DNA of 64,000 nt from Eubacterium sp. AF36-5BH (GTDB lineage Bacteria > Bacillota > Clostridia > Lachnospirales > Lachnospiraceae). This document shows, piece by piece, positions 4,910-28,466 of this stretch. Each line of letters starts with the position of its first letter. The first letter of the stretch is position 1. The DNA is taken from positions 47,395 to 111,394 of the forward strand of contig NZ_QTVG01000008.1 in assembly GCF_003460505.1 (NCBI RefSeq). The letters run 5' to 3'. The notes below the pieces were generated by a model. It was not told the origin of the DNA and did not search any database. It worked only from the letters and a program-made list of their open reading frames with translations. The position numbers and the translations under genes were made by a program.

Positions 4910-5812
4910 TCATAATCTAGATAGTTTTGTAAATAAACGTTTATCTTTATATGATATCTTAGTGTTTTTTCTATATTCTGATTTAACCTCCCTATAGAAT
5001 AATCCAATATTTCTTGATGCCTTTTTACAGTAATCCTCATCAGCTATACATATTACATTGTAGTAATACCATAAAATATGATATAAATACCATTTTTCTA
5101 ATTCTTCTTTTTCTTCTTTTTCCTTAAAAATAGAGCCACTTGATTTGATTCCATCAATACAACATTTGATGAGTTCATAATAGTAATCCCTCGCTGCATT
5201 AGCCATTATACTATCATCTCTACATCTGTAATTATATAATCCTTTATGATATACAACGCTCTTGTCTGCCTTCGCAACAAGTTTAGGTAATGTATATAAA
5301 TCTTCATGAATTTTTCCCACAGGAAATTCAATATCATCAAACAATTCTCTCTTAAATAATTTCCCCCAAACTTCAAAACATGACGTATACAGCATATGTA
5401 AAAGCATCTTATGTGAATTACCAATTATCACCTCTCCACTCTCAAAATGATGTCCAGATTTGACAATCGCTGTAATATCAGCATTATCCTCTTCCATCAA
5501 CCACACTAAAATTTCTAATGTTTTTTCATCAATCCAGTCATCTCCATCTACAAACATAATATATTCACCAGTAGATTTTTTTATTGCACAATTTCTAGCT
5601 GCAGATAAACCTTGATTTTCTTGATGTATAACAATTACTTGTTCATATTTATTCGAATACTCATCACATATGTTAACGCTTTTATCTGTTGAGCCATCGT
5701 CAACAAGTATTATCTCAATATTTTTATATGTTTGCTTTATCAAAGAATCAATACATTTGGTAACATAACACTCGATGTTGTATACAGGCACAATTATTGA
5801 CACTTTCTTCAT
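4910..5812 (-). CDS. family 2 glycosyltransferase
   Basis: A 300-residue GT-A fold enzyme expected to transfer a sugar from a nucleotide-sugar donor. The start is the usual VSIIVPVYNIECYVTKCIDS, followed by ILVDDGSTDKS and, near residue 90, the metal-binding DGDDW motif. A catalytic-base region (KIHEDLYTLPKL) is present in the middle. There are no membrane helices, so it is cytoplasmic or peripheral. It is the last gene of the cluster, 25 bases after the BtrH-like gene, and would decorate the product before or together with export. It could instead be a cell-surface glycosyltransferase carried along. Confidence 0.85.
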   Translation of the reverse strand: MKKVSIIVPVYNIECYVTKCIDSLIKQTYKNIEIILVDDGSTDKSVNICDEYSNKYEQVIVIHQENQGLSAARNCAIKKSTGEYIMFVDGDDWIDEKTLEILVWLMEEDNADITAIVKSGHHFESGEVIIGNSHKMLLHMLYTSCFEVWGKLFKRELFDDIEFPVGKIHEDLYTLPKLVAKADKSVVYHKGLYNYRCRDDSIMANAARDYYYELIKCCIDGIKSSGSIFKEKEEKEELEKWYLYHILWYYYNVICIADEDYCKKASRNIGLFYREVKSEYRKNTKISYKDKRLFTKLSRL

Positions 5813-5837
5813 AAATCACCACTTTCTATTGATATAT

Positions 5838-6890
5838 TCATACATTATAATTATCAAAAAAGTCATTTAACGCTCTTAAACTGATTTCTAATTGCTGAAA
5901 CAAACCCTTAACTTTCTCAACAATCAATTTGCCATGCTTTTTTTCTTTTTTTACATTATATTTCATAAAAAGAGTTCTTAATATAACAGTTTTGTGTGCC
6001 AAATCACTGAATTCATTATAAATCCTTTTTATTTCTTCGTTACTAGATATATACTGATTATCAATCATATATTCAATTCTGGCACACATTACATCGTTAA
6101 ATATATATATCAAATGTATCGTTTTATAATCGAGCCTAGAACCTTCACTTATACAATACTTCAAATATTCCACAATACGCTCTAAACACTCAATTCCATA
6201 TACTACTTCTTCACAAACTGTAAATAAATCAGATTCATCATTAATTGTATTCTCTTTCGAATTCAAAAAGTCAGAAATCATATTACGTGTTCTGTCAAAA
6301 TCAAAGGTATATTTTTCATTTCTAGAATACTGCAATAATAGAACATTCACCATATCTACACTATCTCGTTCCCTTATATATCCCATATTTGCATCAAATG
6401 CCATCCTAAAATCTAAATATGGAATTTCCTTAACAGAATAAATATGCTTAAAAAAATCTGCTGCAAGAACAACTTTCTTTTCTTCGTTATACCCCATTAC
6501 AAATATCTCATGTGAACTATGAATTTTCGTTTCACTTTCAAGCCACCAGGAATCTATGTAGTAGGTGTCAACCTCGGTAAAAATATATTTTTTTGCTCTA
6601 ATGCTATCTTTTATAATCTCAATAATGTTATCTGTTTTATATAATTCAATTATTTCGTTTTTCAACATAGGACACTGTTCATAGTACTCTGAGTTCATAT
6701 CATACTTAAAATCTCCCATGTAACCTTTTACATATTTGTTTGCATATATCCATAATGAAATGTAATTATTATATAACCAAATCTTATCGTCATTAACAGC
6801 TTTAAGAATACCATTTATGGCAGTATTCAAAGGATACGTCTTATATTTTGGTATTGTAAACGGTAAACTTATTGAATTATTATCACACAT
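5838..6890 (-). CDS. BtrH-like protein without the N-terminal cysteine
   Basis: A 350-residue protein that resembles the protein at 11109-12164 in length, gene position and layout: an N-terminal papain/C39-like half and a helical C-terminal half. The HEIFVMGYNEEKKVVLAAD segment fits the His...Asp strand pair of the BtrH/C39-like fold. The N-terminal motif that should hold the nucleophile Cys reads TYPLNTAIN here, with no Cys (the only early Cys is residue 2). It is therefore probably inactive as an acyltransferase and may be a binding partner or carrier chaperone. It lies between the ABC exporter genes and the terminal glycosyltransferase. Confidence 0.5.
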   Translation of the reverse strand: MCDNNSISLPFTIPKYKTYPLNTAINGILKAVNDDKIWLYNNYISLWIYANKYVKGYMGDFKYDMNSEYYEQCPMLKNEIIELYKTDNIIEIIKDSIRAKKYIFTEVDTYYIDSWWLESETKIHSSHEIFVMGYNEEKKVVLAADFFKHIYSVKEIPYLDFRMAFDANMGYIRERDSVDMVNVLLLQYSRNEKYTFDFDRTRNMISDFLNSKENTINDESDLFTVCEEVVYGIECLERIVEYLKYCISEGSRLDYKTIHLIYIFNDVMCARIEYMIDNQYISSNEEIKRIYNEFSDLAHKTVILRTLFMKYNVKKEKKHGKLIVEKVKGLFQQLEISLRALNDFFDNYNV

Positions 6891-6905
6891 ATGCTATTCC
6901 CCTTT

Positions 6906-8696
6906 TTATTTGTAATATTTTGCTTGCGTATTGTACATTTTATAATAAAGTCCTGAAGTGTTATTAATTAACTCTTCATGACTCCCTTCCTCAATAATTG
7001 CTCCTCCACTAAACACTATTATCCTGTCGCAGAATTTACATGAAGACAATCTATGAGAAATATATATCGCAGTTTTTTTATTTACTAATTTGTCAAAATT
7101 ATTATAAACTTCATATTCTGATATGGGATCAAGTGCAGCCGTTGGCTCATCCAATATTACTATTGGAGCATTTTTATACAGTGCCCTCGCAATTGCAAGT
7201 TTTTGAGCCTGTCCGCCTGAAGGCTCAACACCATCTTCAACAAACATTTTATATATATACGTATTGTCCTTGTTTTCAAGCTTATTAATCCACTCATCAA
7301 CTCCGGCTAATTTGTATATTTCACTTAAATCTTCGTTCCTCTCTTTAAATACTGTAACATTGTCTTTTATATTAAATGCAAATAATCTATAATCCTGAAA
7401 TACTACTGATAGCATATTCATATATTCTGCTGCATTGTATTCTCTGGCTTCTTTCCCATTAATAATTATTTTACCTTCATAGTTATCATATAATCGACAC
7501 AAAAGCTTAATAAACGTTGTCTTGCCTTCTCCGTTTTGCCCAACAATTGCAAGATGCTCTCCAGAATTTATTTTTAAGGATATGTTTTTTAAAATATATC
7601 TTTCAGTGTTTGGATATTTAAAACTAACATTATCAAACTCAATATCACATCTGCTAGGAGCATCTGTATTACAATCCACATGAATCAATTCTTCATTTTT
7701 TGATTTTACACTCTCAACAAAATCAATGTAATACTTTAATATTGATGATGTATAATTCATCCCCAAATAGGAATCTACTATTCCACTAATGGCATCTCCA
7801 AATTTTGAAGTGGCCTGGAATAAACTTGAAAACTCACCAATTGAAATCACTTTATTAAATATATTAACTGCTAACAATATATAAATTGAAGTATTACATA
7901 TGGCACGAAATACATTATTAATATTCCAAAAATTAACAAACTTTATATTGTATTTTTTGTTAGTGTTATATAACTTATCTACATATCCATCATATTTCTT
8001 TTCAAATAATTCAGATGCATCATATAAACGTATATCCTTAGCATATCTGCTTTCAAGTAATTCAGTATTAAAATATGTACTTCCTCTTTCAAGATTTCCC
8101 ATTTCAGAAAAGAGATTTTTTCTTACCTTATTAACCTTAGCGGTTGTATATGAATTCACAATAAATGAAATAATAACAGGAATCATCAATAATGGAATTC
8201 TAGTACAAACTAATGTAACAACACCCAGCGCAACAATAAAATTCGAAGCTATCCCAGCTAAAGAATTAATTAACCCATTTACCTGTCCGGTTTCATTTAA
8301 TGCCCTTTCTGCGTTTTTTATAACATCCAAAACCTCGGTATCTTCAGTATATTTAAACTTCATATTGACACAATTCATGCACAAATCTGTTTTGAAAATC
8401 CTATCAAATTTTTCCCCTATTCTGGCAATATTTTCTCCAACATATTTTATCATGGTCGCAATAATAAAATTGCCAATACAAATAAACGCTACCCAAAATA
8501 CTATCCAACTTATATTTCTCTTTGAACCATCAACAATTTCATCAATCAAATACTGTGTTCCTATAATTGAAATAAATGGCGAAACTGAATTGACAATTAT
8601 ATTCATTAGTAAAAACAGATAATATTTTTTGTCATTTTGCCATGCAAATTTACCAAAGAACTTAAAACAACGAATATTTTCTTTACTATTTTTCAT
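6906..8696 (-). CDS. ABC exporter half-transporter (TM domain + ATPase)
   Basis: A half-transporter of 596 residues using the ATG at 8696, which has a GGAGG ribosome binding site; a longer reading from 8783 lies inside the upstream gene. About six membrane helices occupy the first 320 residues, followed by a nucleotide-binding domain with Walker A GQNGEGKTT, Q-loop VVFQDYR, signature SGGQAQ and Walker B VILDEPTAALD. The residue before SGGQ is Pro instead of the usual Leu. It overlaps the upstream ABC gene by 11 bases, so the two most likely form a heterodimer that exports the cluster product. No peptidase domain is fused, unlike classical peptide exporters. Confidence 0.88.
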   Translation of the reverse strand: MKNSKENIRCFKFFGKFAWQNDKKYYLFLLMNIIVNSVSPFISIIGTQYLIDEIVDGSKRNISWIVFWVAFICIGNFIIATMIKYVGENIARIGEKFDRIFKTDLCMNCVNMKFKYTEDTEVLDVIKNAERALNETGQVNGLINSLAGIASNFIVALGVVTLVCTRIPLLMIPVIISFIVNSYTTAKVNKVRKNLFSEMGNLERGSTYFNTELLESRYAKDIRLYDASELFEKKYDGYVDKLYNTNKKYNIKFVNFWNINNVFRAICNTSIYILLAVNIFNKVISIGEFSSLFQATSKFGDAISGIVDSYLGMNYTSSILKYYIDFVESVKSKNEELIHVDCNTDAPSRCDIEFDNVSFKYPNTERYILKNISLKINSGEHLAIVGQNGEGKTTFIKLLCRLYDNYEGKIIINGKEAREYNAAEYMNMLSVVFQDYRLFAFNIKDNVTVFKERNEDLSEIYKLAGVDEWINKLENKDNTYIYKMFVEDGVEPSGGQAQKLAIARALYKNAPIVILDEPTAALDPISEYEVYNNFDKLVNKKTAIYISHRLSSCKFCDRIIVFSGGAIIEEGSHEELINNTSGLYYKMYNTQAKYYK

Positions 8697-10524
8697 CGTA
8701 TTGTCCTCCATCCATTTCATTTTTGTCTTTATAATATTGTGACTGCACTTCATACATATAAGCGTATTTTCCATTATTTGCAATTAATTCATCATGTGTA
8801 CCTTCTTCCACAATCTCTCCACCGTCAAACATCGCTATCTTGTCGCAGAATCTTGTACTTCCCAACCTATGAGAAATAAAAATAGCTGTTTTTCCTTGAA
8901 TCATATTATCGAATTCGCGATACATTTTATCTTCTGCAAGTGCATCTAAAGCTGCCGTAGGTTCATCTAAAATAATAACTTCTCCACCTTTGTACATTGC
9001 TCTAGCCATTGCTAGTCTTTGTTTTTCTCCTCCTGACAAATCAATTCCTTCTTTATCAAAAATTTTTAGCAAATTAGAATACAAATCTTTATCGTAACAA
9101 TCTATTTTGGATTTTAATCCACTCTGTTCAAGCACCTTTCTTACTTTGTCCATATCTGTATTCTTTTCTTCTTCAAAAGATATGTTTTCATAAATTGGCA
9201 TTGCAAAGCACTCTACATTTTGAAATACCGGAGAGAATAATTTGAAATATTCTTCTCGATTATATTCTTTTATATCTACACCATTTAAGAGAATTCTTCC
9301 CTGAGTAGGTTCATACAGTTTCATAATCAGTTTAATTAAAGTTGTTTTTCCCGCACCATTCACACCAACTATGGCAAGTTTTTCTCCGTCACTAATTTTT
9401 AAATTAATATTTTTCAATGCATAAATATCATGCCCCGGATATTTAAAACTCACATTCTGGAACTCAAAGGAATATTTGCCGTCATGAAAACTATGATTTT
9501 TCTCTTTATCAACAACGTTCTTTTTACTTTCTTCCCAGTTTAAAAAATTTCTGTAATCATTAATCAAAAGACAATTACCTCTGATGTTCGAGAAAATCCA
9601 GTTTACATATCCCACTGAATCATGAAAAGTGATTACCAAACCAACATATAGAATGAAATCTGATATCTGATAATTTCCTTGTATAACATTGTATACAAGC
9701 CATATGTACATAAGAGTTTTCTGCATTAATAATACCAATTCCATATCTACGCTGCATATAATCCATCTATTATGATGTTTTTTATTTAATTTGTTAAATA
9801 TATCGTTAGTACTATTTAATTCTCTACCAAAAATATCTGACATACTAAATATTCTAATATCCTTAGCAAAATCAAAGTTTTTGGTAACTCCTTCTAAATA
9901 TGTCATCTTACGCCATACCGGAGCCATTTTATCAGTAAACTTTTCTTTATCAAGTCTGGTAAAAAATGCTAATATTTTTGCAATGCCAAAAGAGATTATT
10001 ATAAAGAATATCATCACAAAGACATTTTGAATTCCAATCAATGTTGCAGATATTATCATTAAAGCACCTTGTGCAATAAAGTTTCTACTTTCAAATAATA
10101 CACCAAAAAAGCCTCTTCCCCTATACAATGCAGTTTTGGCTTTTTGTGCAAAATCTAAAAACTCTGGTGACTCCATATTTTTGAAATCAGTATGAAATAT
10201 TTTACTCATTCGAAGTTTTTCAAGATACCCTTCTGTTATACGATACTCATAATCAAATGCATTATTACTTATCGTACTAATAATGTTAAAAATCAATATT
10301 ACTGTACAAACAATAATTATATTGAAAATAATTTTATTCAACTCGAGATTTTGTTCAATAAAAGATAACACCAATTTGGGGGAATATGCCCACATTAACT
10401 TTGTAACTATGTTTGCCATTGGTTTAATTAATATAACAGCCAACAGTTTTTTATTGCTCTTCTTTGCGATTTGAAGTGCATACATAAAATTATTCAAAAA
10501 ACCATACGTTTTTTCTTTTTCCAT
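8686..10524 (-). CDS. ABC exporter half-transporter (TM domain + ATPase)
   Basis: A 612-residue half-transporter starting at ATG 10524 behind GAGGAG. Membrane helices fill the first 330 residues; the ATPase domain shows Walker A GVNGAGKTT, signature LSGGEKQR and Walker B VIILDEPTAALD. The motifs are all canonical, whereas the partner gene has a changed signature flank, which suggests a heterodimer with one standard and one altered site. It follows the second carrier-protein gene by 48 bases. By position it should export the finished or carrier-released product. Confidence 0.88.
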   Translation of the reverse strand: MEKEKTYGFLNNFMYALQIAKKSNKKLLAVILIKPMANIVTKLMWAYSPKLVLSFIEQNLELNKIIFNIIIVCTVILIFNIISTISNNAFDYEYRITEGYLEKLRMSKIFHTDFKNMESPEFLDFAQKAKTALYRGRGFFGVLFESRNFIAQGALMIISATLIGIQNVFVMIFFIIISFGIAKILAFFTRLDKEKFTDKMAPVWRKMTYLEGVTKNFDFAKDIRIFSMSDIFGRELNSTNDIFNKLNKKHHNRWIICSVDMELVLLMQKTLMYIWLVYNVIQGNYQISDFILYVGLVITFHDSVGYVNWIFSNIRGNCLLINDYRNFLNWEESKKNVVDKEKNHSFHDGKYSFEFQNVSFKYPGHDIYALKNINLKISDGEKLAIVGVNGAGKTTLIKLIMKLYEPTQGRILLNGVDIKEYNREEYFKLFSPVFQNVECFAMPIYENISFEEEKNTDMDKVRKVLEQSGLKSKIDCYDKDLYSNLLKIFDKEGIDLSGGEKQRLAMARAMYKGGEVIILDEPTAALDALAEDKMYREFDNMIQGKTAIFISHRLGSTRFCDKIAMFDGGEIVEEGTHDELIANNGKYAYMYEVQSQYYKDKNEMDGGQYDEK

Positions 10525-10572
10525 TGTTCTCCTCACTAGCTATCTTCAGATTTTTTTATAAATAGTTTTCTA

Positions 10573-10818
10573 TCAATTCTTAATTTTTATTATGTTTTCT
10601 ACGTAATTTACAAAATCCCCTACAGTTTTGTAATTTGAAGTAAGCATATTTTCATCATCAAATTCTATTCCAAAATTATCTTCGATTTCTACAATAATTG
10701 TGATAAAATTTAATGACTCTATTTCGATTTCTTTAAAAGTAGTGTCTAATCCAATATTATCCGTCAGTTCCCCTACTTCAATCATTAATTTAACAATCTC
10801 TTGCTCAATATTATTCAT
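10573..10818 (-). CDS. acyl/peptidyl carrier protein (second in cluster)
   Basis: An 81-residue four-helix carrier protein. The phosphopantetheine attachment motif reads EIESLNF, with Ser at residue 35, instead of the more usual DSL; Glu before the Ser is unusual but tolerated. The acidic recognition helix (IIVEIEDNFGIEFDDE) is typical. It is one of two carrier proteins in the cluster; the other (13368-13616) sits next to the ligase. It would carry an acyl or aminoacyl group on its phosphopantetheine arm. The roughly 290 bases upstream of it hold no convincing gene. Confidence 0.82.
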   Translation of the reverse strand: MNNIEQEIVKLMIEVGELTDNIGLDTTFKEIEIESLNFITIIVEIEDNFGIEFDDENMLTSNYKTVGDFVNYVENIIKIKN

Positions 10819-11108: not shown

Positions 11109-12164
11109 TTACTCATCTGGGCTAACGTCTATATACTTAATATTTTCAATAAGTTTAACTACCTTTTCAAACAATTCTTCATCTCGTTTTCTGCATTTAC
11201 AAAAGTCTTCTTCAAGCTTTGTTAAACCATCACTTTTCCTTGCAAACTTATATAAAACAGACATTTTCAATTTTTCCCACTTGGCATAATCATCTTTTCT
11301 GGATGCCAAAAGACTTGCGATTTCATCCTTGTCTATATTTGCTTCTTTTAATAATATAAACAGCATATCATAATATACTTCTTTAAAGTTAAGTACTTTT
11401 GCATAAATTCTTGAGTAATTCGCAATATTTTCATTTTTCCTGTGAATAATATCGGTTTCTGGATATGACAAAATTCCTTTATTTTCTTTTGCCATTAACA
11501 ATTCTTCTCTATGAATTTTCAATGCTTCTTCATAATTATATGTATATTTGTTTTCAGTAATATATTCCATATCCCAATAATATGGAAACTCTTCTTTCTT
11601 AAGAATAGAGTTAAAAATTGCTTCTGCAATTTTATAAACACAATCAAAAGTTAATGCAAAATTCTTATACACCCCATCAATACCACCATCAATCTGCATA
11701 TTGTCTAGAACATAAAATACCTCTTTATCAATATCAAATCCTTTAATAATAAGAAAATGAACATGGTTGCGAACTTTATATTCTTCATAATATGGTAATT
11801 CTATAAGATCAACTGGTACAAGTATTCGGTGATCATTTTCTAGATTACTACAAATATTTTTTATAAACTCATTCTGGCTCTTGTACACATTTTTATTTAC
11901 TTTCACACCAAATCTAGGTTCTAGAATTTCTTTGACAAACTTATAGTAATTATTATTAAAGTTTCCGTTAAAATCATACCATTTAAAATAATAATTATAA
12001 TCAAAATTCTCATAAAAAATCGATGTTAATAAATATAAATTAAAATATTCTTTTTTTATAGAACCATACAAAATTGCCCATGGTTTATGAAAACAGGTTA
12101 ATTCCCTTGGACTATAATTATCATCATTAGGTACTATTTTTTTTTGAACAAACTTATTAACCAT
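11109..12164 (-). CDS. BtrH-like acyl-carrier-dependent acyltransferase
   Basis: A 351-residue protein with a papain/C39-like N-terminal half resembling BtrH, the enzyme that moves an aminoacyl group from a carrier protein to an amine in butirosin biosynthesis. The likely nucleophile is Cys24 in ELTCFHKPW, the His lies in NHVHFLIIKGFD (134/136) and the Asp in YVLDNMQ (154). The C-terminal half is helical and charged. It lies directly after the amino acid:carrier-protein ligase gene (39-base gap) and before the second carrier protein, which fits a role in transferring the carrier-bound amino acid to the product. A cysteine peptidase role is the main alternative. Confidence 0.6.
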   Translation of the reverse strand: MVNKFVQKKIVPNDDNYSPRELTCFHKPWAILYGSIKKEYFNLYLLTSIFYENFDYNYYFKWYDFNGNFNNNYYKFVKEILEPRFGVKVNKNVYKSQNEFIKNICSNLENDHRILVPVDLIELPYYEEYKVRNHVHFLIIKGFDIDKEVFYVLDNMQIDGGIDGVYKNFALTFDCVYKIAEAIFNSILKKEEFPYYWDMEYITENKYTYNYEEALKIHREELLMAKENKGILSYPETDIIHRKNENIANYSRIYAKVLNFKEVYYDMLFILLKEANIDKDEIASLLASRKDDYAKWEKLKMSVLYKFARKSDGLTKLEEDFCKCRKRDEELFEKVVKLIENIKYIDVSPDE

Positions 12165-12203: not shown

Positions 12204-13334
12204 TTAGTTTTTATATTCTTTTCTTATTAATTCTGGCCAGTTATTTGAATCTTCCCCATACTGGGATAAAAACGAAAGCACAAAACGTTCTAAACCAAAT
12301 CCTATACATCCTGTAACCGTATCTTTGTCTTTTATTTTAATATTAAAAGGATATGTAAACGCTGTTCCATGCAGATTAAATGATGCCACAGACATATACT
12401 TATCAACATCATACGAAACTTGCAATTCATACTTGCTCTTATCGAGTTGTTGAATTTTTTTAAATTTTTGCATTTTAGGCAATATGAATGAATCCGTTGC
12501 AACTATTATTTTGGAATCTACATTTACATATTTAATAAATTCTTTTATTTTACCTATCATTTTCTCCATAGAATTATTTATGAAGTCATTGTCCCCAATA
12601 AATACTATCTCTCTGACATGATAGTCTCTCATTCTTCCAAACTGAGAGAAATTAAATCTTCCCTCATTTCTAAAAACATTTTGCACAAATGTTACGACAG
12701 TATCCTTCTCAAGTATCCTATTCTTATATTCTTCATACACATGAAAACATGCAGATGGAGATAAAGCATACTGTGGATTGTTAATCACACTCTTATAATC
12801 ATAAAAGTTAATACTATCAATTTTTCCTAGGCTCTTCAAATTTTCTACTGCTGAGCAGCAGAAAATAGAGTACTGTGGAGATCTTTTCAAATATCCTGTT
12901 TTCTTGTAGCTTGAAACTGGAAGCATTACAGGATAAATCTTCTTAACAAAATCAGTTTTCTCATTACTAAATGCATCTTCAGCTATCTTCTCAAATACGG
13001 AATTAAAATAATTGAATAAAAATAGAGACTGATCACTGAATGAAATCATTCCATCATCAAAATAATGCACTGAAGAAAAGTCATTTTCATACTTAATAAC
13101 ATCAATCCTATTTTCAAATTCTTTCTGTTCTAAAGAACTGTTTGGAATATACTTATTAGCTAAGCTTATTATGTCATTAGTTAACTCACTTTCGTTTGTG
13201 TCATCTGAAACATTCAAAATCAACTTACAATTCTCAAATCGGACTCCTTCTATATTTTCAGAAACAAAACCAACTATTTTTTTAAATTCACTCAAAATAA
13301 CTTTATCATCAAGTTCTATCTCTATCTTTTTCAT
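12204..13334 (-). CDS. amino acid:[carrier protein] ligase (SerRS-like)
   Basis: A 376-residue class II aminoacyl-tRNA-synthetase-like enzyme with no tRNA-binding arm. Such homologues of the archaeal-type SerRS activate small amino acids and load them onto a carrier protein rather than tRNA. Class II motif 2 is FRNEGRFNFSQFGRMRDYHV (221-240) and motif 3 is TGCIGFGLERF. The three zinc ligands expected for this family can be placed at Cys196 (SPSACFH), Glu242 and Cys343, with spacings of 46 and 147, close to those of characterised relatives. It starts 33 bases after a carrier-protein gene, its presumed substrate. Amino acid choice (Gly or Ala in known members) cannot be read from sequence. Confidence 0.85.
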   Translation of the reverse strand: MKKIEIELDDKVILSEFKKIVGFVSENIEGVRFENCKLILNVSDDTNESELTNDIISLANKYIPNSSLEQKEFENRIDVIKYENDFSSVHYFDDGMISFSDQSLFLFNYFNSVFEKIAEDAFSNEKTDFVKKIYPVMLPVSSYKKTGYLKRSPQYSIFCCSAVENLKSLGKIDSINFYDYKSVINNPQYALSPSACFHVYEEYKNRILEKDTVVTFVQNVFRNEGRFNFSQFGRMRDYHVREIVFIGDNDFINNSMEKMIGKIKEFIKYVNVDSKIIVATDSFILPKMQKFKKIQQLDKSKYELQVSYDVDKYMSVASFNLHGTAFTYPFNIKIKDKDTVTGCIGFGLERFVLSFLSQYGEDSNNWPELIRKEYKN

Positions 13335-19752: not shown

Positions 19753-20847
19753 TTATTGTAAATCGACTTTCTTATAGTCATTATTTGAAAAGTCAATGCT
19801 ATACTTCAAATCGAAAGCACTCTCGACAAAGCTTCTCTTTCTCTTTACTACATCTGTTGTTCCTAATATTGCTATTTCATCAACACCTTCCTTGTCAGTC
19901 TTAATCATTTCCATAATTCTCTCGTACTCTGTATTTGGATAGAACTGATTAAGATAGAATAATGTGAAATAAATTTCTCTGTTACAATCAAACTGACTTA
20001 CTTCCTTAATCCATTTTTCAAGCTTGTCAACTCCAATTGAACGAATTGTATTTTCAATGTCTATTAGTTTGTAAATCATACAATCACGTTTATCACTTAC
20101 CCAAAGGCTATGGCTTGCCTCTCTGCTGAAATGAATACACAAATGAAGTAAATGCCCTTCCCAACGTAATCCTCTAATCTTATAACCATTTTCTTCATAG
20201 ATAATTGTGCCATAATCAAAAACTTTTTCCGTTAAAGTTTCTTTATCTTTTCCATCATCTATTCTGAAGTTAATGTCAATCTTAAAGTAGGCTAACAACT
20301 CAAAATCTTCATTTTTCTTGTAATATGGAATCAAATCATGATGATGTAATCTTTGAATAATCTTATCTTTCTTCGATGCTTCACCTTTATCACTGTTTAA
20401 TGCTTGAATAAACCCTTCTTTTCTAAGTATTTCATCAATTTTCTTTAAATCTGCTTCATGAACAAGAATGTCTATATCGTTTGATCTCCGCATTCCAAGT
20501 TCATACAAAGAAGAGTTAAATATAACACCCTTTAGTCCTGCATATTTTACATTTTCTTTTTCAAACTCATCAAATATTTTCTGCATATAATCCATGTTCT
20601 CGCGTGTTAACACCTTGTTCAACTTTACAATAAGATCTAACTGCTTTCTTACTTCCTTAAACAAATATTTTGTACATGTTTCAGGCAATCCCATCATAAA
20701 ATATCCTGTTAACCTATGGTGAATTAATTGACCAATTATGTAACCCCAATCAACAGGTTCAGACAATATGTCTTCAATTCTCTTTATTTCACTTTCACTC
20801 TTATTAATAGCTGATGTTAATAAAATCAATTCGTTCTCTGCTCTCAT
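19753..20847 (-). CDS. nucleotidyltransferase-like family protein
   Basis: A 364-residue protein resembling the uncharacterised nucleotidyltransferase family found in many biosynthetic clusters. The key part is VKYAGLKGVIFNSSLY, then MRRSNDIDILVHEADLKKID, where the Asp-x-Asp pair would bind metal in the nucleotidyltransferase fold. A long helical C-terminal region follows. It starts 13 bases after a Nudix gene and precedes the PHP gene by 40 bases. The C-terminal part of the protein at 25457-27274 appears to be a distant relative. It might attach a nucleotide to the product as an activation or self-protection step. Confidence 0.65.
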   Translation of the reverse strand: MRAENELILLTSAINKSESEIKRIEDILSEPVDWGYIIGQLIHHRLTGYFMMGLPETCTKYLFKEVRKQLDLIVKLNKVLTRENMDYMQKIFDEFEKENVKYAGLKGVIFNSSLYELGMRRSNDIDILVHEADLKKIDEILRKEGFIQALNSDKGEASKKDKIIQRLHHHDLIPYYKKNEDFELLAYFKIDINFRIDDGKDKETLTEKVFDYGTIIYEENGYKIRGLRWEGHLLHLCIHFSREASHSLWVSDKRDCMIYKLIDIENTIRSIGVDKLEKWIKEVSQFDCNREIYFTLFYLNQFYPNTEYERIMEMIKTDKEGVDEIAILGTTDVVKRKRSFVESAFDLKYSIDFSNNDYKKVDLQ

Positions 20848-20860: not shown

Positions 20861-21280
20861 TTATAGCATTTGTATTAATTCTCTCATATATGAAACTAAT
20901 TCATCATCCTTCATTGCTAATATATCTTCTTTTGTCACCCATTTGTAGTCATCATGTTCCTCCAAATCAAGTTCAATATTTTCTGAATTATTTACTGTTC
21001 TGCATGAATAAATCAACGTAGTAAATATCTTATTTTTCTTTGTATCTATATTTGACTTTTCACAAAGTATTCTCTCAACAGTAACATCAAGATTCACCTC
21101 CTCCTTTGCCTCTCTCTCTGCAGCTACAGATGGAAATTCCAATTCTTCTACTGTTCCTCCTGGAATATCCCATTTTCCACCTTCGAAGTTTTCTTTTCCT
21201 CTTTTAATCATTGTTCTCCTGATTATTAAAATCTCATCCTTTAAATTTTTTACTAATGCATGTGCAATTAAATTGTGCAT
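20861..21280 (-). CDS. Nudix hydrolase
   Basis: A 139-residue Nudix hydrolase that would cleave a nucleoside diphosphate linked to another moiety. The Nudix box G-x5-E-x7-R-E-x2-E-E is complete in GGTVEELEFPSVAAE followed by REAKEEVNL. It is preceded by a membrane glycosyltransferase gene and followed by the nucleotidyltransferase-like gene, so it could act on a nucleotide-linked intermediate or recycle by-products. A general house-cleaning function cannot be excluded. Confidence 0.88.
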   Translation of the reverse strand: MHNLIAHALVKNLKDEILIIRRTMIKRGKENFEGGKWDIPGGTVEELEFPSVAAEREAKEEVNLDVTVERILCEKSNIDTKKNKIFTTLIYSCRTVNNSENIELDLEEHDDYKWVTKEDILAMKDDELVSYMRELIQML

Positions 21281-21319
21281 ATTGAGCCTCCTTAGTTTAT
21301 ATCTTTATTATTTTATTTA

Positions 21320-22579
21320 TTAAACTACTTTTTCAGTCTTGTACTTATTCTTTTGCGAATTCTTTCCTCCAAATATCCTTCCAAAAGTAATAATAGGTCC
21401 TGCCGAATGAATCAGTAGCCAAAATACAACTTCTCTTATTGCATATCTTATGTCTTTATGCTCTTTTTGATTAATATAACCATTCTCATACAATATTTTT
21501 TCTGCAATTATATTGGGACATATCACATAAAAAAGCGTTTCTGCCAGTAATATTGTAAAACAAACCACATTTCCTGATAGTGCCAGGTAAACCAGTAAGA
21601 TAACTGTTAATAACTCAAAAGCAAACCAGTTTAGTGCATTTTTAAAGTTCTGGCATGATGTAATGAACTGCTTTAACAAATTCTTTCTTTCATTTTTCTT
21701 ATCAATAAAATAATTAAATGCATATAAAGGACCATTAAACCAAACCGACTGTTGTTTTACATATACAGGTATATTATGTGCAAAATCGATTTTTTCCAAA
21801 AAAGGAATTGGATAAATCCTAATATTATTGTTGCTTAATTCGTATCCTAAAACATTATCTTCATTTATATAGCTTTCTGAAAATAAACCTATGTCATTTA
21901 TTGTTTTATTACAAAAAAACAAGCCATGACCTATTGTATAATTGAATTTCTTTATTCCAAACTCGTATTGACGTGCTGCTCTTGGTAATTCATAAGCTAA
22001 AGACCATCTATTCTGCCACATTACAGCATTTCTAATCATTCCTTTGCTATTGCAAATGGAATATGCGTACTGTTGAAAAACTCCATTTTTCAATTTGTTC
22101 TTATTTTTTAATACATAGTCTATAGTCTGTATTCCTATGGACGAGTCAACATTATATATTCCTACAATCGTTTCCTCTTCAACTTGCCTTAACGCATAAT
22201 TAATTTGGTGTGCCATTACACCATCTGAATTTGGATACAACATTATTTTACAATAATCCTCTATATCAAATTTATTTACTAATTCTTCTAGCAAATCGTA
22301 TGTCTTTATTTTTCCTTTTTCTTTATTGGTACAAACATAAATTACTTCTACTCCCTTTCTCATAAGTGGTAAAAAGTTCATAAAATATTTTTTTATTACA
22401 GCTTGTTCATTATATACAGGTATTATTATTGCTATATCTTTGTAATCATCCTTGCTCTCACCACAATTGAATGTTGAAGAAGCTTTTTTGATTATCTCTC
22501 GACTCTTTTGCAATCTATAAACTCCCAAGCCTCCACCTATCGCTAACAAAAAGCAATCAAAAATAATCAACCATAACAT
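21320..22579 (-). CDS. membrane-anchored family 2 glycosyltransferase
   Basis: A 419-residue protein with one N-terminal membrane helix (LWLIIFDCFLLAIGGGLG), a GT-A catalytic domain beginning IAIIIPVYNEQAVIKKY with IYNVDSS in the donor-binding position, and three or so C-terminal hydrophobic segments (ELLTVILLVYLAL, CFTILLAETLFYVI, VVFWLLIHSAGPII). The layout resembles processive or lipid-linked glycosyltransferases at the cytoplasmic membrane. It abuts the tandem kinase gene with no gap. It may glycosylate a membrane-associated intermediate or the exported product. Confidence 0.8.
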   Translation of the reverse strand: MLWLIIFDCFLLAIGGGLGVYRLQKSREIIKKASSTFNCGESKDDYKDIAIIIPVYNEQAVIKKYFMNFLPLMRKGVEVIYVCTNKEKGKIKTYDLLEELVNKFDIEDYCKIMLYPNSDGVMAHQINYALRQVEEETIVGIYNVDSSIGIQTIDYVLKNKNKLKNGVFQQYAYSICNSKGMIRNAVMWQNRWSLAYELPRAARQYEFGIKKFNYTIGHGLFFCNKTINDIGLFSESYINEDNVLGYELSNNNIRIYPIPFLEKIDFAHNIPVYVKQQSVWFNGPLYAFNYFIDKKNERKNLLKQFITSCQNFKNALNWFAFELLTVILLVYLALSGNVVCFTILLAETLFYVICPNIIAEKILYENGYINQKEHKDIRYAIREVVFWLLIHSAGPIITFGRIFGGKNSQKNKYKTEKVV

Positions 22580-23839
22580 TCATATCCCTCCCCCATAATC
22601 AGAGAAAAACTGATATATTATTTTCTTATTTTTTTCTATGACATTAATCAGTTCCAATAATTCCATCTGAAGATAATGCATTCTTCCGTAACAATCTGCA
22701 AATACTTCTTCTATACTTTTATCTGCATTAATCATTACAAACATCTGATTAGGCAACAACTGTGTAAGTAACCTTGACAGTTTTATTTCACCAGACCATA
22801 ATTCGATATTACTTTTAAAATGCTGTCTTGTTTTTGATATATCAGATGACTTTCGTTGTTCTATTTTTTCTCTTTCCATATACAAGAAAAAAATCTGATT
22901 AATTCTTATGTCCTGACTCACTTCTTTTATTTTCTTTATATAACTATCAATAAATGACATCCCATAATTCTTTTTAGCAGCAGAATAAAATGAATAAGCT
23001 ATATTTTCAAATATCCCATTATCGATAACTATTCTTTTTTTTGACTTATATCTTTGAACGGACTCAATAAAATATTCAATCTGATGCTTCAAAAACGATT
23101 CTTCATCGGTGCTACAATTAACCTTTCTTATTTCATCCGCAATATAAAAGCCATATAAAGAATAAATTTTGCATAAAGAGCTCTTTCCAACAGCAGACAT
23201 TCCATCAATGCTAAAGTTACAATTAATGTTATCAATTCTTAATGCTTTTTGTAATGCGTGTAAAAAATCAACTTTGCCTATCTCATATTTTTCATCATAT
23301 AAATCTATTTTATTCACTGTATTAGAATAGTTATATTCAATAATTTTATCTTTTAATTCTTCCTGAAACGTTGCAAGAAACTCCTCTTGAATATCAATGT
23401 ATTCTCTTTCTACATATACTGGTGCTGTACCCTTTATTAGCCTATTTGTTTCATAAGAACTGACAATAGCATCATATTTCTGGCTACAAATAATAACTCT
23501 GTTGGGTACTTTGTTTTTCCCCTTTGCCAAAGAATTAATATATGCACTATGAAATTCACTTCTTATATCTATATTTTGAATTTTAAATAACCAAAATGCA
23601 TAAGCGCTTAAAGAAATAATCGATCTATCCAAAATTGTATTATTTTCAGAATTCCCAATACGACTCTCATCCTGAATCATATATAAAAACTGTCTCTTAA
23701 ATGGATTCTCTTCGTTTATTATTTCGTATTCATCTGCAGCACAAAACTCAGGGTATCTTTTCATTATATTTTTTAACAATGATGTTTTACCAGTATTCAC
23801 ATTTCCATCTATTGCTACAATTATTCTAGTCATATGCAT
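22580..23839 (-). CDS. tandem P-loop kinase (two nucleoside-kinase-like domains)
   Basis: A 419-residue protein with two P-loop NTPase units in one chain. The first has Walker A GNVNTGKTS (12-20) and ILDRSIISLSAY near 70, resembling the DRS motif of deoxynucleoside kinases. The second has GMSAVGKSS (213-221) and VIDNGIFENIAYSF in the equivalent place, where the DRS-like motif is changed to DNG. One active and one altered half is a reasonable reading. It overlaps the radical SAM gene upstream by 14 bases. In a pathway with TruD- and Nudix-type enzymes it may phosphorylate a nucleoside or sugar intermediate. Confidence 0.65.
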   Translation of the reverse strand: MHMTRIIVAIDGNVNTGKTSLLKNIMKRYPEFCAADEYEIINEENPFKRQFLYMIQDESRIGNSENNTILDRSIISLSAYAFWLFKIQNIDIRSEFHSAYINSLAKGKNKVPNRVIICSQKYDAIVSSYETNRLIKGTAPVYVEREYIDIQEEFLATFQEELKDKIIEYNYSNTVNKIDLYDEKYEIGKVDFLHALQKALRIDNINCNFSIDGMSAVGKSSLCKIYSLYGFYIADEIRKVNCSTDEESFLKHQIEYFIESVQRYKSKKRIVIDNGIFENIAYSFYSAAKKNYGMSFIDSYIKKIKEVSQDIRINQIFFLYMEREKIEQRKSSDISKTRQHFKSNIELWSGEIKLSRLLTQLLPNQMFVMINADKSIEEVFADCYGRMHYLQMELLELINVIEKNKKIIYQFFSDYGGGI

Positions 23840-25376
23840 TTAACCTCTTTTGGCCATGAGATACCATTAACTGCAAATCAGAATTTTTCTTGGATACATA
23901 ATCATATACAAGACCACGACCTGCCTGCAGACGATAATAATAATTTTCAAATGTATCAAAATATTTTTCTTTAGCATATTCAAACAACTCATCTTCATTA
24001 TAATTGTCATATATTTCAGTGATATCTTTAAATAACAAGCAAGCAAAATCATTATATTCTTGTATCAGGTCATTAAAATGATTCATGCAAGGAGCATTCC
24101 ACTCATCATACTTATTTCCATATAGATTAATTAAATATAATGTGCTTGTACATACATTTTCATAGTCTCTAACATCAAACAAATCAAAGAATCTACACAA
24201 AACATTATAGATTTTTTCAACAGATGAATTTTCAAACTGATAATCATATGCAACATCAACTCTATCTCTTTCATCATTTCCTTTTATACGTTCCACTGAC
24301 AACAATCTCATTTTCTCAACAATGATTCCAAGCCTGTATAACTTGTTAAGCTTATACAAATAGTCAATATTTTCAATTACTTCCTGTACAGTAGCACTTG
24401 GATGAAATATAATAAAGCCTATATGATAACTAATTTTTAATTTGTCAAATGTCGCTAAAATTTTGTCATATTCATCAATTTTTTTATTGTACTTTTCAGA
24501 AAACGAATCTGATATATTCTCGATACCGATAAAAACTCTTCTTAATCCAGCTCTTTTTAATAATTTAAGTCTTTCCTCTCCGATAAAAGGTTGACATCTT
24601 AAATAAATCATAAATGATATATCTAGCCCTTTTTGTTCAATTAATTCAACAAATCGTTCTATACTCTTATCATCCCTTTCATTACACCAAAATACATTGT
24701 CATTAAATATGAACATTTTCTTCCCCATGTTTACATAACAATCTTCTATTTCTTCAACAACACTTTCTATACTTCTTGCAGAAAATGGACGTTTTACAAG
24801 ATTAATGTGACAAAAAGAACATGTTCCAAAGCATCCGTTTCTCCATATTAGATTTATATATTTACACTGTTCTGTTTTCTCAATATCTCTTGCAGGATTA
24901 GGAAGTTTATCTAGAGGAATATATGTATGTCTGCAATTTTCATAAAGGCTACCATCTGACATTCTAAACAAACCACCTATAAGTTTTTTGCCTTCACTTT
25001 TTCCATAAGCAATGGCAAAATCGCATCCATCTCCATATACAATCCCATCTACAAATTCATATTTCTTTATTAGTTGTTTTGCATTAATCTCTGCAAAATA
25101 CCCCATAATATATATCTTGCTATTTGGGCAAACCTCTTTTAATGCACTAAGTAATTTTGTTCCTTCATTGTAGTCCTGAAAATTGCATTTATATATGATT
25201 ACTGGATACTTTTCATTCTCAGATATTATCTTCGTCAAATTATCCATTCGATTTTTTTCAAGCAAAGCTAATTGAACATTATAATTATTTTCCCTTATGT
25301 AACTTGCCAAATAACCTGCTGTTAGTGACGCAGCTGACTGAGAAAAAAGAGTTCTATAAAATAATATTTTAAACAT
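23826..25376 (-). CDS. B12-binding-type radical SAM enzyme
   Basis: A 516-residue radical SAM enzyme with an N-terminal Rossmann-like domain of the cobalamin-binding type (residues 1-130, with GYFAEINAKQL and VDGIVYGDGCD) and then the iron-sulfur motif CFGTCSFC (Cys182, 186, 189). The classical DxHxxG cobalamin motif is not obvious, so B12 use is uncertain. A C-terminal helical region rich in Tyr/Asp follows. Enzymes of this class methylate unreactive carbons, rearrange rings or insert sulfur. It follows the SufS and SufU-like genes, so radical sulfur insertion is an attractive idea but only an inference. Confidence 0.82.
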   Translation of the reverse strand: MFKILFYRTLFSQSAASLTAGYLASYIRENNYNVQLALLEKNRMDNLTKIISENEKYPVIIYKCNFQDYNEGTKLLSALKEVCPNSKIYIMGYFAEINAKQLIKKYEFVDGIVYGDGCDFAIAYGKSEGKKLIGGLFRMSDGSLYENCRHTYIPLDKLPNPARDIEKTEQCKYINLIWRNGCFGTCSFCHINLVKRPFSARSIESVVEEIEDCYVNMGKKMFIFNDNVFWCNERDDKSIERFVELIEQKGLDISFMIYLRCQPFIGEERLKLLKRAGLRRVFIGIENISDSFSEKYNKKIDEYDKILATFDKLKISYHIGFIIFHPSATVQEVIENIDYLYKLNKLYRLGIIVEKMRLLSVERIKGNDERDRVDVAYDYQFENSSVEKIYNVLCRFFDLFDVRDYENVCTSTLYLINLYGNKYDEWNAPCMNHFNDLIQEYNDFACLLFKDITEIYDNYNEDELFEYAKEKYFDTFENYYYRLQAGRGLVYDYVSKKNSDLQLMVSHGQKRLNAYD

Positions 25377-25456: not shown

Positions 25457-27274
25457 TTAAAAGAACCAGTTTGCCAAATAATCTGTCGAATAAGGAATAG
25501 GATGATATTCATTTTCCCCCAATTCTCCAAGTATCTTTCCAATTTCTTTCTTTACCATTTTTCTATTTATTCCATTTTCTACAGAATATACATCAATAAA
25601 GATTCCTATTTCGCATATGTATAATGTCCACATGGAATTAGTTAATTTAATAATGCTTTCATCAAATATATCAAAATCCTGATATATCTTTTTTAGGCCA
25701 ACATAAATTTCATCTATGCTTCCGACTTTCTCATCAAAAACAAACAAAGGTTGTAAATAAACACGTTCATTATCCGTTCCTGATTTTAGTCTATTTTCCA
25801 AATCCATTTTCTTGATTTGGTATACTTCCTGTGAATCAAATGGCCACTTTTTGTAGCAATACATATACTGTTCATCAACACATAATTCTTTTTTTATCTG
25901 TTCTTTCTTTTCATCTTTTAAATCATAATTTGTAAAGATAAACCCAAACAATACTGAAGCAAAAACATCAAGATTATTTTCTTTAATTTTTTTACCAATT
26001 ATGTTGAAATCAAGTTTTTTATGTTTTACCATCATGTATATATCATTGATATCTTTCATATATACATTTTTATGCTTATACGCATGGCACAAAGTAATTA
26101 TCAGCTGATCTTCTGGAATAATTTCTCCGTTTTTTATTTCAGGAACAAAGTAATCAATTCTTCCCATAGGAAATCCTGGAAAATTAACATCTACAATAAT
26201 CTTGTAACGACTATTCATTACTCTTTCCAAATGAAAATGACCAGAATAAGTATCCTTTCCATTTATCATTATTTTTTTTAAAGAGAACAATCCTGCACTG
26301 ATTTTATATCCATTGTTCAACAAATATTTAGCAAGTTTAAAAGCATCTGAAATGTTTGTTGCTATAAAATCGTAATCCAAATGAACTCTTATTCCTTCGC
26401 CTTCATATAACTCACTCGAATTAGCCCCCTTAGTCATAAATATATTCAGTCCTTTGGACTTTATATATGCATACACTCTTTCAAATTCACACTTTGTAAT
26501 ACTTTTACGATGAATACGATATATTATATCTTTCCATATTTCATTTTCACCGACCGAAATATTATATTTTTCCATATTGCCCAATACACCTTGGGATATT
26601 TTTTCTTTTCTTAAATATTGATAATCATCAGGTGTGATATCTTTCACAAGTTTTTTTAATAACTCCACTTCATCCTGTGACAGATAAGCTTTTGACACCT
26701 TTCCCCATTTTTCCTTATACTCTGTCGAATACTCAACCTTTTCTTCCTTTTTTTTAGTATCATTCACCTGCTTCCTCTCATTTTGTAGCTGACAATTTGT
26801 TTCCCACGAAACATTGCTTGCTACCATACATGCATCACAATCCAAATTCTGCAATGTATCAATCTCTTTTGTTGTTTCTTTAATACAGGTACTCAATTCT
26901 GAAGCGAGTGCATAAAGCATTTCAAACGGAAACGTCAAACAATTAATTCTGTTAACTAATTTGGGCACCTCAAATAAATCCAATAAGATTTGATTATTAT
27001 CCTTTATCTCCTTAAGTCTTGAAGTAATTTCATTTAAAACAAAATTAATAGGCTTATCATTGTATTTTTCAAATAAATAGTTTGCTGATGCATTGCATAA
27101 CTCACATCCTTCAACATAGAAACAAAACTCAATTATCCCATCATTATTTTCACCAACTAGTGATACATAATCACCACAAGCTACTCCATCTTTCTCCAAT
27201 ACATAATCTGGAATTATTAACCTATTGTATTTCATATTGCTATATTTCTGAATCATTTTAGAATAACTTTGCAT
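25457..27274 (-). CDS. fusion of SufU/IscU-like scaffold and nucleotidyltransferase-like domain
   Basis: A 605-residue two-part protein. Residues 1-140 match the SufU/IscU scaffold: the ligand set is Cys33-Gly-Asp35 (VACGDYVSL), Cys57 in VEGCELC and Cys113 in VNRINCLTF, the same order as in SufU. A Lys/Glu-rich linker follows, then a C-terminal half with MTKGANSSELYEGEG and VHLDYDFIA, which resembles the nucleotidyltransferase-like family also seen at 19753-20847. It ends one base before the coding start of the cysteine-desulfurase neighbour, so the pair are co-expressed. The fusion suggests that persulfide sulfur is passed from the desulfurase to a substrate activated by the second domain. 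Confidence 0.65.
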   Translation of the reverse strand: MQSYSKMIQKYSNMKYNRLIIPDYVLEKDGVACGDYVSLVGENNDGIIEFCFYVEGCELCNASANYLFEKYNDKPINFVLNEITSRLKEIKDNNQILLDLFEVPKLVNRINCLTFPFEMLYALASELSTCIKETTKEIDTLQNLDCDACMVASNVSWETNCQLQNERKQVNDTKKKEEKVEYSTEYKEKWGKVSKAYLSQDEVELLKKLVKDITPDDYQYLRKEKISQGVLGNMEKYNISVGENEIWKDIIYRIHRKSITKCEFERVYAYIKSKGLNIFMTKGANSSELYEGEGIRVHLDYDFIATNISDAFKLAKYLLNNGYKISAGLFSLKKIMINGKDTYSGHFHLERVMNSRYKIIVDVNFPGFPMGRIDYFVPEIKNGEIIPEDQLIITLCHAYKHKNVYMKDINDIYMMVKHKKLDFNIIGKKIKENNLDVFASVLFGFIFTNYDLKDEKKEQIKKELCVDEQYMYCYKKWPFDSQEVYQIKKMDLENRLKSGTDNERVYLQPLFVFDEKVGSIDEIYVGLKKIYQDFDIFDESIIKLTNSMWTLYICEIGIFIDVYSVENGINRKMVKKEIGKILGELGENEYHPIPYSTDYLANWFF

Positions 27275-27275
27275 A

Positions 27276-28448
27276 TTACACCTCTTTCAACACTCTACAC
27301 AAATTTTCTATATTCATCTCGCTTACGCCAATACCAAAGGAAATTCTGTTTATTGCAAATTCTCCCATCTTTCTGATAGATGGCTGTGCACACATGTTAC
27401 CTGATCTAATTATAATATTATTTTCGGCCAGACTGTATTCAATATCGTGTGCATTTTTTTTGTCATTCACAAAAGAAATCAGCGATTTACAATCATTTAC
27501 TTTGGACACAACTCGTACATTCGGATTTGAAACTAATACATCATAAACCTTACTAATACAATAATTATCAATTTCATTTATTCTGTCATAGCCAATATCA
27601 TTTACAAATTCACAAGCTTTTGCCCATGCACTTATTAAGCCTATATCAACTGTACCTGCCTCAAATTTCTTTTCACATTTCTTCCATGTATCCTCAAGGG
27701 CAACCGTTTCAACCATTCCTCCTCCCAAAAACAAAGGAGGAATCTCATCAATAAATTCCTTCTTAATAAAAGCACCCGCTATATTTTTAGGTCCATACAT
27801 CTTATGCGAACTTAAAAAATGTGCCGTAATTCTGTCATTCTTTACAATTGAACTATGTGCAACCGTCTGTGACTCATCTACAAAGATATATGACTTCGAA
27901 AAAATGCCACACACCTTTTCCACGTCTACCTTAAAACCGTTTGTATTTGATGCACTCGATACTGCAACAATTTTTACTTTTTGCTTTATCCTTTCCAGAT
28001 AACTCCAATCGATTTCATCATTAATTGTAAGTGGCATTTCAATAAAAATTGCACCTGTGCGTTTTGCTAAATATTTCCACGGCAAAATATTACTGTGATG
28101 TTCATATGGTCCAATAAGTATAACATCCATCGGACGTATTATTTCGCCTAATGACAAAGCTATAATATTAATTAACTCTGTTACATTTTTTCCATATATC
28201 AATTTATAATCACATGAAACATTAAAGTGATTAAATATACTCTTTTCAGAATTTATATATGTATTGTATGCTTTGTCTGCCAGAATATTATTACCTTTCC
28301 CATAATAAATTCCAATATTGTTTTGATATTCTACCCAACTCTCAATTACCTTTTGTGGCATAAATGTAGTTGCAGCATAATCAAAATAATCTACCTTTTT
28401 ATCTTTAAAATATGAAACATATTCATCAATAGTCTTCATTGCATTCAT
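27276..28448 (-). CDS. SufS-like cysteine desulfurase
   Basis: About 390 residues from the ATG at 28448, which has AGAAGG six bases upstream; a GTG at 28466 behind GGGAGG is the alternative. It is a fold-type I PLP enzyme of the class V aminotransferase group. The PLP Lys lies in SSHKMYGPKN and the conserved active-site Cys in RSGNMCAQP, as in SufS/CsdA-type enzymes. The reaction would be cysteine to alanine with sulfur held as persulfide. It is the first gene of the biosynthetic operon and is followed directly by the SufU-like fusion, the normal acceptor for this class. It could serve iron-sulfur assembly, but the fused acceptor and location suggest a dedicated pathway role. Confidence 0.87.
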   Translation of the reverse strand: MNAMKTIDEYVSYFKDKKVDYFDYAATTFMPQKVIESWVEYQNNIGIYYGKGNNILADKAYNTYINSEKSIFNHFNVSCDYKLIYGKNVTELINIIALSLGEIIRPMDVILIGPYEHHSNILPWKYLAKRTGAIFIEMPLTINDEIDWSYLERIKQKVKIVAVSSASNTNGFKVDVEKVCGIFSKSYIFVDESQTVAHSSIVKNDRITAHFLSSHKMYGPKNIAGAFIKKEFIDEIPPLFLGGGMVETVALEDTWKKCEKKFEAGTVDIGLISAWAKACEFVNDIGYDRINEIDNYCISKVYDVLVSNPNVRVVSKVNDCKSLISFVNDKKNAHDIEYSLAENNIIIRSGNMCAQPSIRKMGEFAINRISFGIGVSEMNIENLCRVLKEV

Positions 28449-28466
28449 TTGTAACCTTCTGGTCAC

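Follow-up and report, generated by a model that had tools for sequence, protein, structure and literature searches.

In the pseudouridimycin pathway of Streptomyces (pum/sap), the C-nucleoside is made by the TruD-like enzyme PumJ, as set out in the accessible parts of three reports (PMC8724604; PMC7955054; PMC10127198). The albomycin (abm) and 4′-thiothymidine (thmA-C) clusters combine a radical SAM enzyme with a deoxycytidine kinase (dCK)-type nucleoside kinase, AbmG or ThmB; thm also includes an NTP hydrolase, and AbmM spends its own iron-sulfur (Fe-S) cluster as sulfur donor (PMC12691670; PMC9032320). The portion of PMC7955054 at hand already predicts that various microbes contain further C-nucleoside clusters built on relatives of pumJ, so a cluster of the kind described here was foreseen. 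The DNA considered is a stretch of 64,000 nucleotides (nt) from Eubacterium sp. AF36-5BH (contig NZ_QTVG01000008.1), called the window below, with a gene cluster at positions 4910-28466. This cluster is tentatively read, with slightly less than even confidence, as a mobile and probably agr-controlled locus that makes and exports an aminoacylated C-nucleoside by the route proposed below.

The cluster consists of 21 minus-strand open reading frames (ORFs) with a GC content of 0.30, given here from g21 to g01.

27276..28466, minus strand: g21, SufS-type cysteine desulfurase (PF00266 above cut-off; PDB SufS E 2e-44)
25457..27274, minus strand: g20, SufU-like scaffold fused to a polymerase-beta-type nucleotidyltransferase
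23826..25376, minus strand: g19, radical SAM protein with a weak B12-type N-terminal half (PF04055 3e-14)
22580..23839, minus strand: g18, tandem deoxynucleoside-kinase-fold protein with two Walker A motifs
21320..22579, minus strand: g17, glycosyltransferase-2-like protein (PF13641 28.8 bits, cut-off 27)
20861..21280, minus strand: g16, Nudix hydrolase, MutT-like (PF00293 4e-16; MutT models below cut-off)
19753..20847, minus strand: g15, NTP_transf_5 nucleotidyltransferase (PF14907 2e-30)
18867..19712, minus strand: g14, PHP phosphoesterase/exoribonuclease, RNase RNM-like (PDB 7ug9, a 5′-3′ exoribonuclease, E 4e-35; below cut-off on NF047791, 164 of 375 bits, and NF041577, 159 of 400)
17349..18404, minus strand: g13, TruD-family pseudouridine synthase of the KDED clade (PF01142 2e-42; tree and motif)
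16720..17361, minus strand: g12, SGNH hydrolase (PF13472 1e-17; GDS, GHND and HHLSELG motifs)
15431..16408, minus strand: g11, P-loop protein, HPrK-like in the sequence-only reading (Walker A alone)
14544..15434, minus strand: g10, radical SAM/SPASM protein (PF04055 5e-9, PF13186 4e-15)
13631..14560, minus strand: g09, P-loop protein, HprK-related (TIGR04355 7e-7, far below cut-off)
13368..13616, minus strand: g08, carrier protein b with a DSL serine (PF00550 24.8 bits, cut-off 20.8)
12204..13334, minus strand: g07, amino acid:carrier protein ligase-like protein (PDB 3mey E 4.7e-15)
11109..12164, minus strand: g06, BtrH-like acyltransferase candidate (PF14399 35.9 bits, cut-off 29.7)
10573..10818, minus strand: g05, carrier protein a with an ESL serine (PF00550 1e-10)
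8686..10536, minus strand: g04, ABC exporter half (PF00005 3e-31)
6906..8783, minus strand: g03, ABC exporter half (PF00005 2e-30, PF00664)
5838..6890, minus strand: g02, BtrH-like protein without the Cys of the N-terminal region (PF14399 below cut-off)
4910..5812, minus strand: g01, glycosyltransferase 2 (PF00535 1e-41)

Seventeen of the 20 gene junctions lie within -98 to +80 nt, and the other three gaps measure 290-462 nt. Domain scans and motifs confirm the one-directional block described in the sequence-only reading, with nearly all of the families that it named. Most of its labels stood, but those of the two HPrK-like proteins and of g02, the second one called BtrH-like, rest on weak matches (domain scores below cut-off, Walker A only, no Cys). 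On checking, catalytic motifs were intact in the desulfurase, the SufU half, both nucleotidyltransferases, both radical SAM proteins, both kinase halves, TruD, the PHP and SGNH proteins and both carriers, and in the Nudix protein with its last Gly replaced. Searches of PDB sequences gave no match for g15 and two chance-level matches only for g09, and poor Foldseek rows (CorA, axoneme, PPK2 and the like) were disregarded. A homologue of g09 is the third gene after SufS in locus L003 (E 2e-14), where g11 also weakly matches a gene neighbouring SufS (E 6e-6).

The TruD-family protein g13 departs from its canonical relatives in both motif and phylogeny. Among the 120 homologues listed of 363 TruD matches, 116 carry the K-D-E-D motif (KDED), three carry K-D-x-D and one lacks the pattern, whereas canonical TruD reads K-D-R/K in 23 of 23 loci (22 in the tree, L038 read by hand). 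In the tree, which was built by a quick method and has long branches, skewed composition and a support of 89 for the 120-row side, a branch sets the 22 canonical TruDs apart, and the TruD of the window (in place of P0001) forms one clade with P0002-P0010 and P0018; PumJ and the mal TruD stand outside this tree. By motif and tree, g13 therefore falls outside the clade of tRNA-modifying enzymes, its own activity being predicted, and within a non-canonical clade linked to biosynthesis through a malayamycin-like member. A KDED TruD of Mesorhizobium is encoded among radical SAM, 2-oxoglutarate (2OG) oxygenase, methyltransferase, aminotransferase, carbamoyltransferase, phosphatase and EPSP-synthase-like genes, together with a P-loop protein below its cut-offs. 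This gene set is close to the malayamycin set in the accessible part of PMC8724604. The locus, L014, is on a Mesorhizobium loti plasmid, and its EPSP-synthase-like gene is present as two ORFs. The Gloeothece locus L015 has a KDED TruD near a g17 homologue (E 4e-15). One further clade member comes from a Streptomyces rimosus subspecies, and another S. rimosus strain is a pseudouridimycin producer, as stated in the part of PMC7955054 consulted.

The closest genome, G001, has 32% of the window's sampled words in common with it; "class" and "relatives" here are those of G001, to which the host of the window may be no kin. No member of the TruD family was found in 391 genomes sampled from that class, where the control matched 7 of 14 known genomes, and the window TruD had no match in 194 relatives in a search without a positive control. 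Across the wider phylum, TruD-family matches occur in 37 of 398 genomes, and the 20 loci read are all canonical. A scan of genome contigs using patterns from one sequence found no TruD relatives, and scans of viral contigs found no relative of TruD or of the SufU fusion. The KDED clade, the absence from class genomes and the malayamycin-like member support a pseudouridine (C-nucleoside) core for the predicted product.

A second module would supply the amino acid. Butirosin assembly provides the reference for part of it, BtrH being an acyltransferase of that pathway. In g06, which has Cys24 and His134/136, the corresponding activity is a candidate one. The ligase-like protein g07 stays below the cut-off of NF005479 (107 of 357 bits). 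Homologues of it were found in 5 of the 381 class genomes, with a weak match in one (G331, E 5e-4). A ligase, a carrier and a BtrH-like gene are close together in three of four other loci: carrier and BtrH-like gene adjoin the ligase in L044 and L046 and lie 3.7 kb from it in L045, and in L047 no carrier was seen and the BtrH-like match is 6.8 kb away. L044 (G289:C31) further encodes a CYTH protein, an ABC pair, an AMP-binding/carrier protein, AdoHcyase-like and PPDK-like proteins and an NTP_transf_5 protein, a g15 homologue at 42%.

The third module concerns sulfur. The desulfurase g21 reaches 248 bits on the SufS model TIGR01979 (cut-off 475), and its Lys222 and Cys359 are invariant in seven sequences. 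Its partner g20 joins a half with SufU fold and ligands to a MenT-like nucleotidyltransferase half. The two genes are adjacent in six of six loci, with radical SAM genes nearby in five and nucleoside-type kinases in four. In the near-identical loci L005 and L006, the pair is accompanied by a TMK-like kinase, a radical SAM protein, a ThiI-like PP-loop protein and heptose-type sugar genes. The A1 profile, run on the 391 class genomes, gave partial matches in six, over the NTP_transf_5 part only, and tblastn found no SufU fusion in plasmids. The window genes g19 and g18 overlap by 14 nt, which places a radical SAM enzyme next to a protein of dCK-type kinase fold, as in abm and thm. The motif DxHxxG for B12 is absent from g19, its PF02310 score of 16.5 bits and its matches to NCBIfam B12/radical SAM families are below cut-off, and a PDB search with it returned no AbmM- or ThmA-like match. 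The SufS-SufU pair with radical SAM and nucleoside-type kinase genes resembles the logic of albomycin and 4′-thiothymidine.

The sulfur handled by SufS and SufU may serve Fe-S upkeep rather than enter the product. A cluster for a sulfur-free C-nucleoside, in which the pair only maintains the Fe-S clusters of the radical SAM enzymes, is somewhat unlikely. The SufU fold and ligands fit this view, as do the two radical SAM enzymes in the window and the presence of such genes near the pair in most loci. To our knowledge, radical SAM clusters seldom bring their own SufS and SufU, plain Fe-S assembly offers no obvious role for the fused nucleotidyltransferase half, and a ThiI-type PP-loop protein accompanies the pair in L005 and L006. 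No SufB, SufC or SufD domains were found among the 21 proteins by Pfam, which separates the locus from a housekeeping SUF operon.

Several of the same proteins have relatives that act on RNA or its precursors: by family or fold likeness this holds for TruD, the MenT-like nucleotidyltransferase, the RNase-like PHP protein, the desulfurase and the aminoacyl-tRNA synthetase-like protein, and the desulfurase also matches SspA/DndA models. A tRNA-modifying or anti-phage conflict locus is nevertheless very improbable. TruD lies outside the canonical clade, PADLOC returned the desulfurase and two weak partial matches from 10 of the 21 proteins, and we know of no such system that would include carriers, BtrH, SGNH and ABC exporters. 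The two family 2 glycosyltransferases, the SGNH hydrolase and the ABC pair could instead belong to a locus for a cell-surface polymer or capsule modification, and the sugar genes beside the pair in L005 and L006 point the same way. Such a locus is highly improbable, however, as none of the 21 proteins has a polymerase, flippase or chain-length domain in the Pfam scans and TruD, the ligase and the desulfurase would be left unexplained.

The cluster is cargo of a conjugative element. Window positions 1-4546 correspond to G001:362447-366992 at 99% identity and 33570-35248 to G001:375850-377519 at 95%, so about 29 kb in the window takes the place of about 8.9 kb in the G001 copy of the element. 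The cargo between these common flanks also differs in content, being the biosynthetic cluster in the window. Elsewhere in the window are genes for a CD1110-family VirB4-like transfer ATPase and for serine recombinases, together with a Tet(M/W/O/S)-type gene; no tRNA gene was found in the window. Megablast of the 23.6-kb cluster DNA against plasmids and phages gave no match. An agr block lies upstream of the cluster.

29377..30642, minus strand: AgrC-like sensor (ORFs 29377-29934 and 29980-30642, split by one in-frame stop)
30639-31409 and 31430-32134, minus strand: two LytTR response regulators (PF04397 and PF00072)
32581..32745, plus strand: AgrD-like signal precursor (picked by eye; near-identical peptide in G001 locus L057)
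32748..33326, plus strand: AgrB (PF04647 1e-27)

AgrB, AgrD, AgrC and LytTR regulators, the parts of an Agr quorum-sensing system, thus stand together, with AgrC interrupted; its relative in L057 is a single ORF of 419 aa. The block recurs at this second G001 site (G001:981134-994115) with 80% DNA identity and a nearly unchanged AgrD, followed by radical SAM, ABC exporter and subtilase genes and a 684-aa g02-like gene (E 2e-30). The 366-base stretch ahead of the first cluster gene is also kept there (72%). Since the block precedes another gene set in G001, the cluster appears to be interchangeable cargo downstream of a conserved agr block, which probably controls it. In the first gap, 28591-28692 (102 bases) is what remains of a transposase-like gene that has two copies in G001 and that we take to be ISLre2-like. 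As side observations, the Tet-type ribosomal protection gene (42899-44818) is intact on the cluster's element, GC at 35200-44818 is 0.46, compared with 0.30 in the cluster, and the segment at about 35.2-45.6 kb that contains this gene is missing from the G001 element, where the large gene lying on both sides of the segment in the window is an uninterrupted ORF.

This neighbourhood bears on a thiotemplated peptide or a product like a ribosomally synthesized and modified peptide, to which TruD and the nucleotide enzymes would be accessory, as in a nucleotide-linked peptide. The agr block before the radical SAM/subtilase genes of G001 suits it, as does a 41-aa ORF with five Cys at 29042-29167, on the cluster strand between agrC and g21. 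In L046 (G439:C164), moreover, the ligase, carrier and BtrH-like genes are accompanied by NTP_transf_5-, HprK- and radical SAM-like genes, together with a small ORF, presumably like PqqD given its size; there, amino acid addition possibly belongs to a peptide pathway. A peptide product is quite unlikely, however: the 41-aa ORF has no match among the 60 loci compared, a look for precursors through the small ORFs of four gaps found nothing else notable, TruD, kinase, Nudix and PHP proteins would go unexplained, and Pfam scans found no lasso peptide B or C domains among the 21 proteins.

The cluster probably exists elsewhere. The longest contigs of TruD P0002, SufU P0121 and kinase P0145 are of equal size (37790), as are those of TruD P0006 and SufU P0123 (35284), and these coincidences make its presence at 62-92% protein identity probable.

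The observed gene content, motifs, predicted folds, linkage, mobile context and TruD clade suggest a route to an aminoacylated C-nucleoside whose reactions would run in the following order. The KDED-type TruD would form pseudouridine with either RNA or a free nucleotide as substrate, and the adjacent RNase RNM-like PHP enzyme could free it from RNA or trim 3′/5′ phosphates. The tandem kinase-fold protein would then phosphorylate or activate the nucleoside, with the Nudix protein and nucleotidyltransferases handling its nucleotide state. A radical SAM enzyme would next remodel sugar or base as SufS transfers sulfur from cysteine to the SufU half, which may either rebuild the Fe-S cluster spent by the radical SAM enzyme as sulfur donor or give sulfur to a nucleotidylated substrate on the fused transferase half. 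The ligase would charge the carriers with an amino acid for transfer to the nucleoside by the BtrH-like proteins. Finally, the glycosyltransferases and the SGNH protein would finish the product, and the ABC pair would export it. The exported aminoacylated nucleoside-like compound, perhaps with sulfur, of the sequence-only reading accords with the TruD clade, the ligase-carrier-BtrH set, the ABC pair and the desulfurase-SufU pair; the product itself and its sulfur stay at the level of proposal.

Several observations weigh against this route. The score of g07 on the ligase 3mey (E 4.7e-15) is like that on type-2 seryl-tRNA synthetase (E 4.9e-15). The likeness of g18 to AbmG is by fold only and tied with many deoxynucleoside kinases, and AbmG was not listed in the profile search. 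In L001, the SufS-SufU pair occurs without a radical SAM gene or nucleoside-type kinase (11 ORFs scanned and 7 more checked by motif, one of these an ABC ATPase). Different kinds of radical SAM protein accompany the pair from locus to locus (MoaA-like, SPASM, other), which points to no one conserved enzyme for sulfur insertion, and while sulfur may be part of the product, the sequence bears no direct sign of it. Pfam scans of the 21 proteins found neither the pum nucleoside 5′-oxidase and aminotransferase nor the mal enolpyruvyl transferase. Upstream, the AgrC-like gene has its in-frame stop, and the Cys-rich ORF before g21 may encode a peptide precursor. TruD clade members P0004, P0005 and P0007-P0010 show no longest-contig coincidence with SufU matches. 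The sulfur and carrier modules each also occur without the other and without TruD, so that the window unites two modules and adds TruD. This occurrence apart touches one refuting condition of the sequence-only reading, homologous loci with the genes scattered and unlinked; for its other condition, no capsule, tRNA-modification or housekeeping locus was found that corresponds to the whole set.

TruD-type nucleoside antibiotics come from Streptomyces in the literature accessible to us; the present reading, if true, would place one in a very different host, on a conjugative element, with an agr block upstream and ligation via carriers instead of amide ligases. The source of free pseudouridine in such pathways, called open in the available part of PMC10127198, becomes testable because an RNase-like PHP gene adjoins truD. 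The turnover of an Fe-S-spending radical SAM enzyme likewise becomes testable because radical SAM genes accompany the SufS/SufU pair. The cluster also gives a context for amino acid:carrier protein ligases, whose role is little known. A further-reaching proposal, itself doubtful, is that SufS and the SufU-nucleotidyltransferase form a sulfur recharge module for Fe-S-spending radical SAM enzymes which, joined to the TruD core, would yield the first thio-C-nucleosides, completed with amino acids from carriers; conjugation would spread the cluster, and quorum sensing would turn it on.

Among systems outside nucleoside biosynthesis, the ligase Bll0957, which we take to be from Bradyrhizobium, has a class-II aminoacyl-tRNA synthetase core like that of g07 (3mey E 5e-15), and g07 adjoins a small carrier protein. 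As for BtrH/BtrI of butirosin, g06 has a BtrH_N domain above the Pfam cut-off and lies near the carriers, with g02 a second copy lacking the Cys. Compared with SufS-SufU of Bacillus subtilis, the window SufU is instead fused to its MenT-like partner, and SufB/C/D are missing from the 21 proteins. Closthioamide thioamidation uses an adenine nucleotide alpha-hydrolase, and no such PP-loop enzyme appeared in the Pfam scans of these proteins. Pseudouridimycin biosynthesis, like the cluster as read here, involves a TruD-like synthase, a kinase homologue (PumH, to which g18 with its deoxynucleoside-kinase fold may correspond), attached amino acids and an exporter; where that pathway, in the sections consulted, has amide ligases, a flavin oxidase and an aminotransferase, the window has carriers, a ligase, BtrH-like proteins, radical SAM enzymes and SufS/SufU, its one class-V aminotransferase-fold protein being SufS. 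Malayamycin (mal, Streptomyces) likewise has a TruD-like synthase, a radical SAM enzyme (MalJ), a kinase (MalE) and phosphorylated intermediates, as far as the available text goes (PMC8724604; PMC7955054), but its enolpyruvyl transferase, 2OG oxygenase and carbamoyltransferase have no Pfam counterpart in the cluster. For abm and thm, whose kinase g18 resembles by fold only, neither a SufS/SufU pair nor TruD is described in the parts of the papers available. The sequence-only reading knew of no described cluster with this combination; the union of TruD-type and thionucleoside logic with a SufS/SufU pair and carrier-bound amino acids was indeed not found in the literature searched, most subscription journals lying outside it. 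TruD-type C-nucleoside clusters and radical SAM-kinase thionucleoside clusters are already described, and the locus is best read as bringing a sulfur module that is new to the TruD type.

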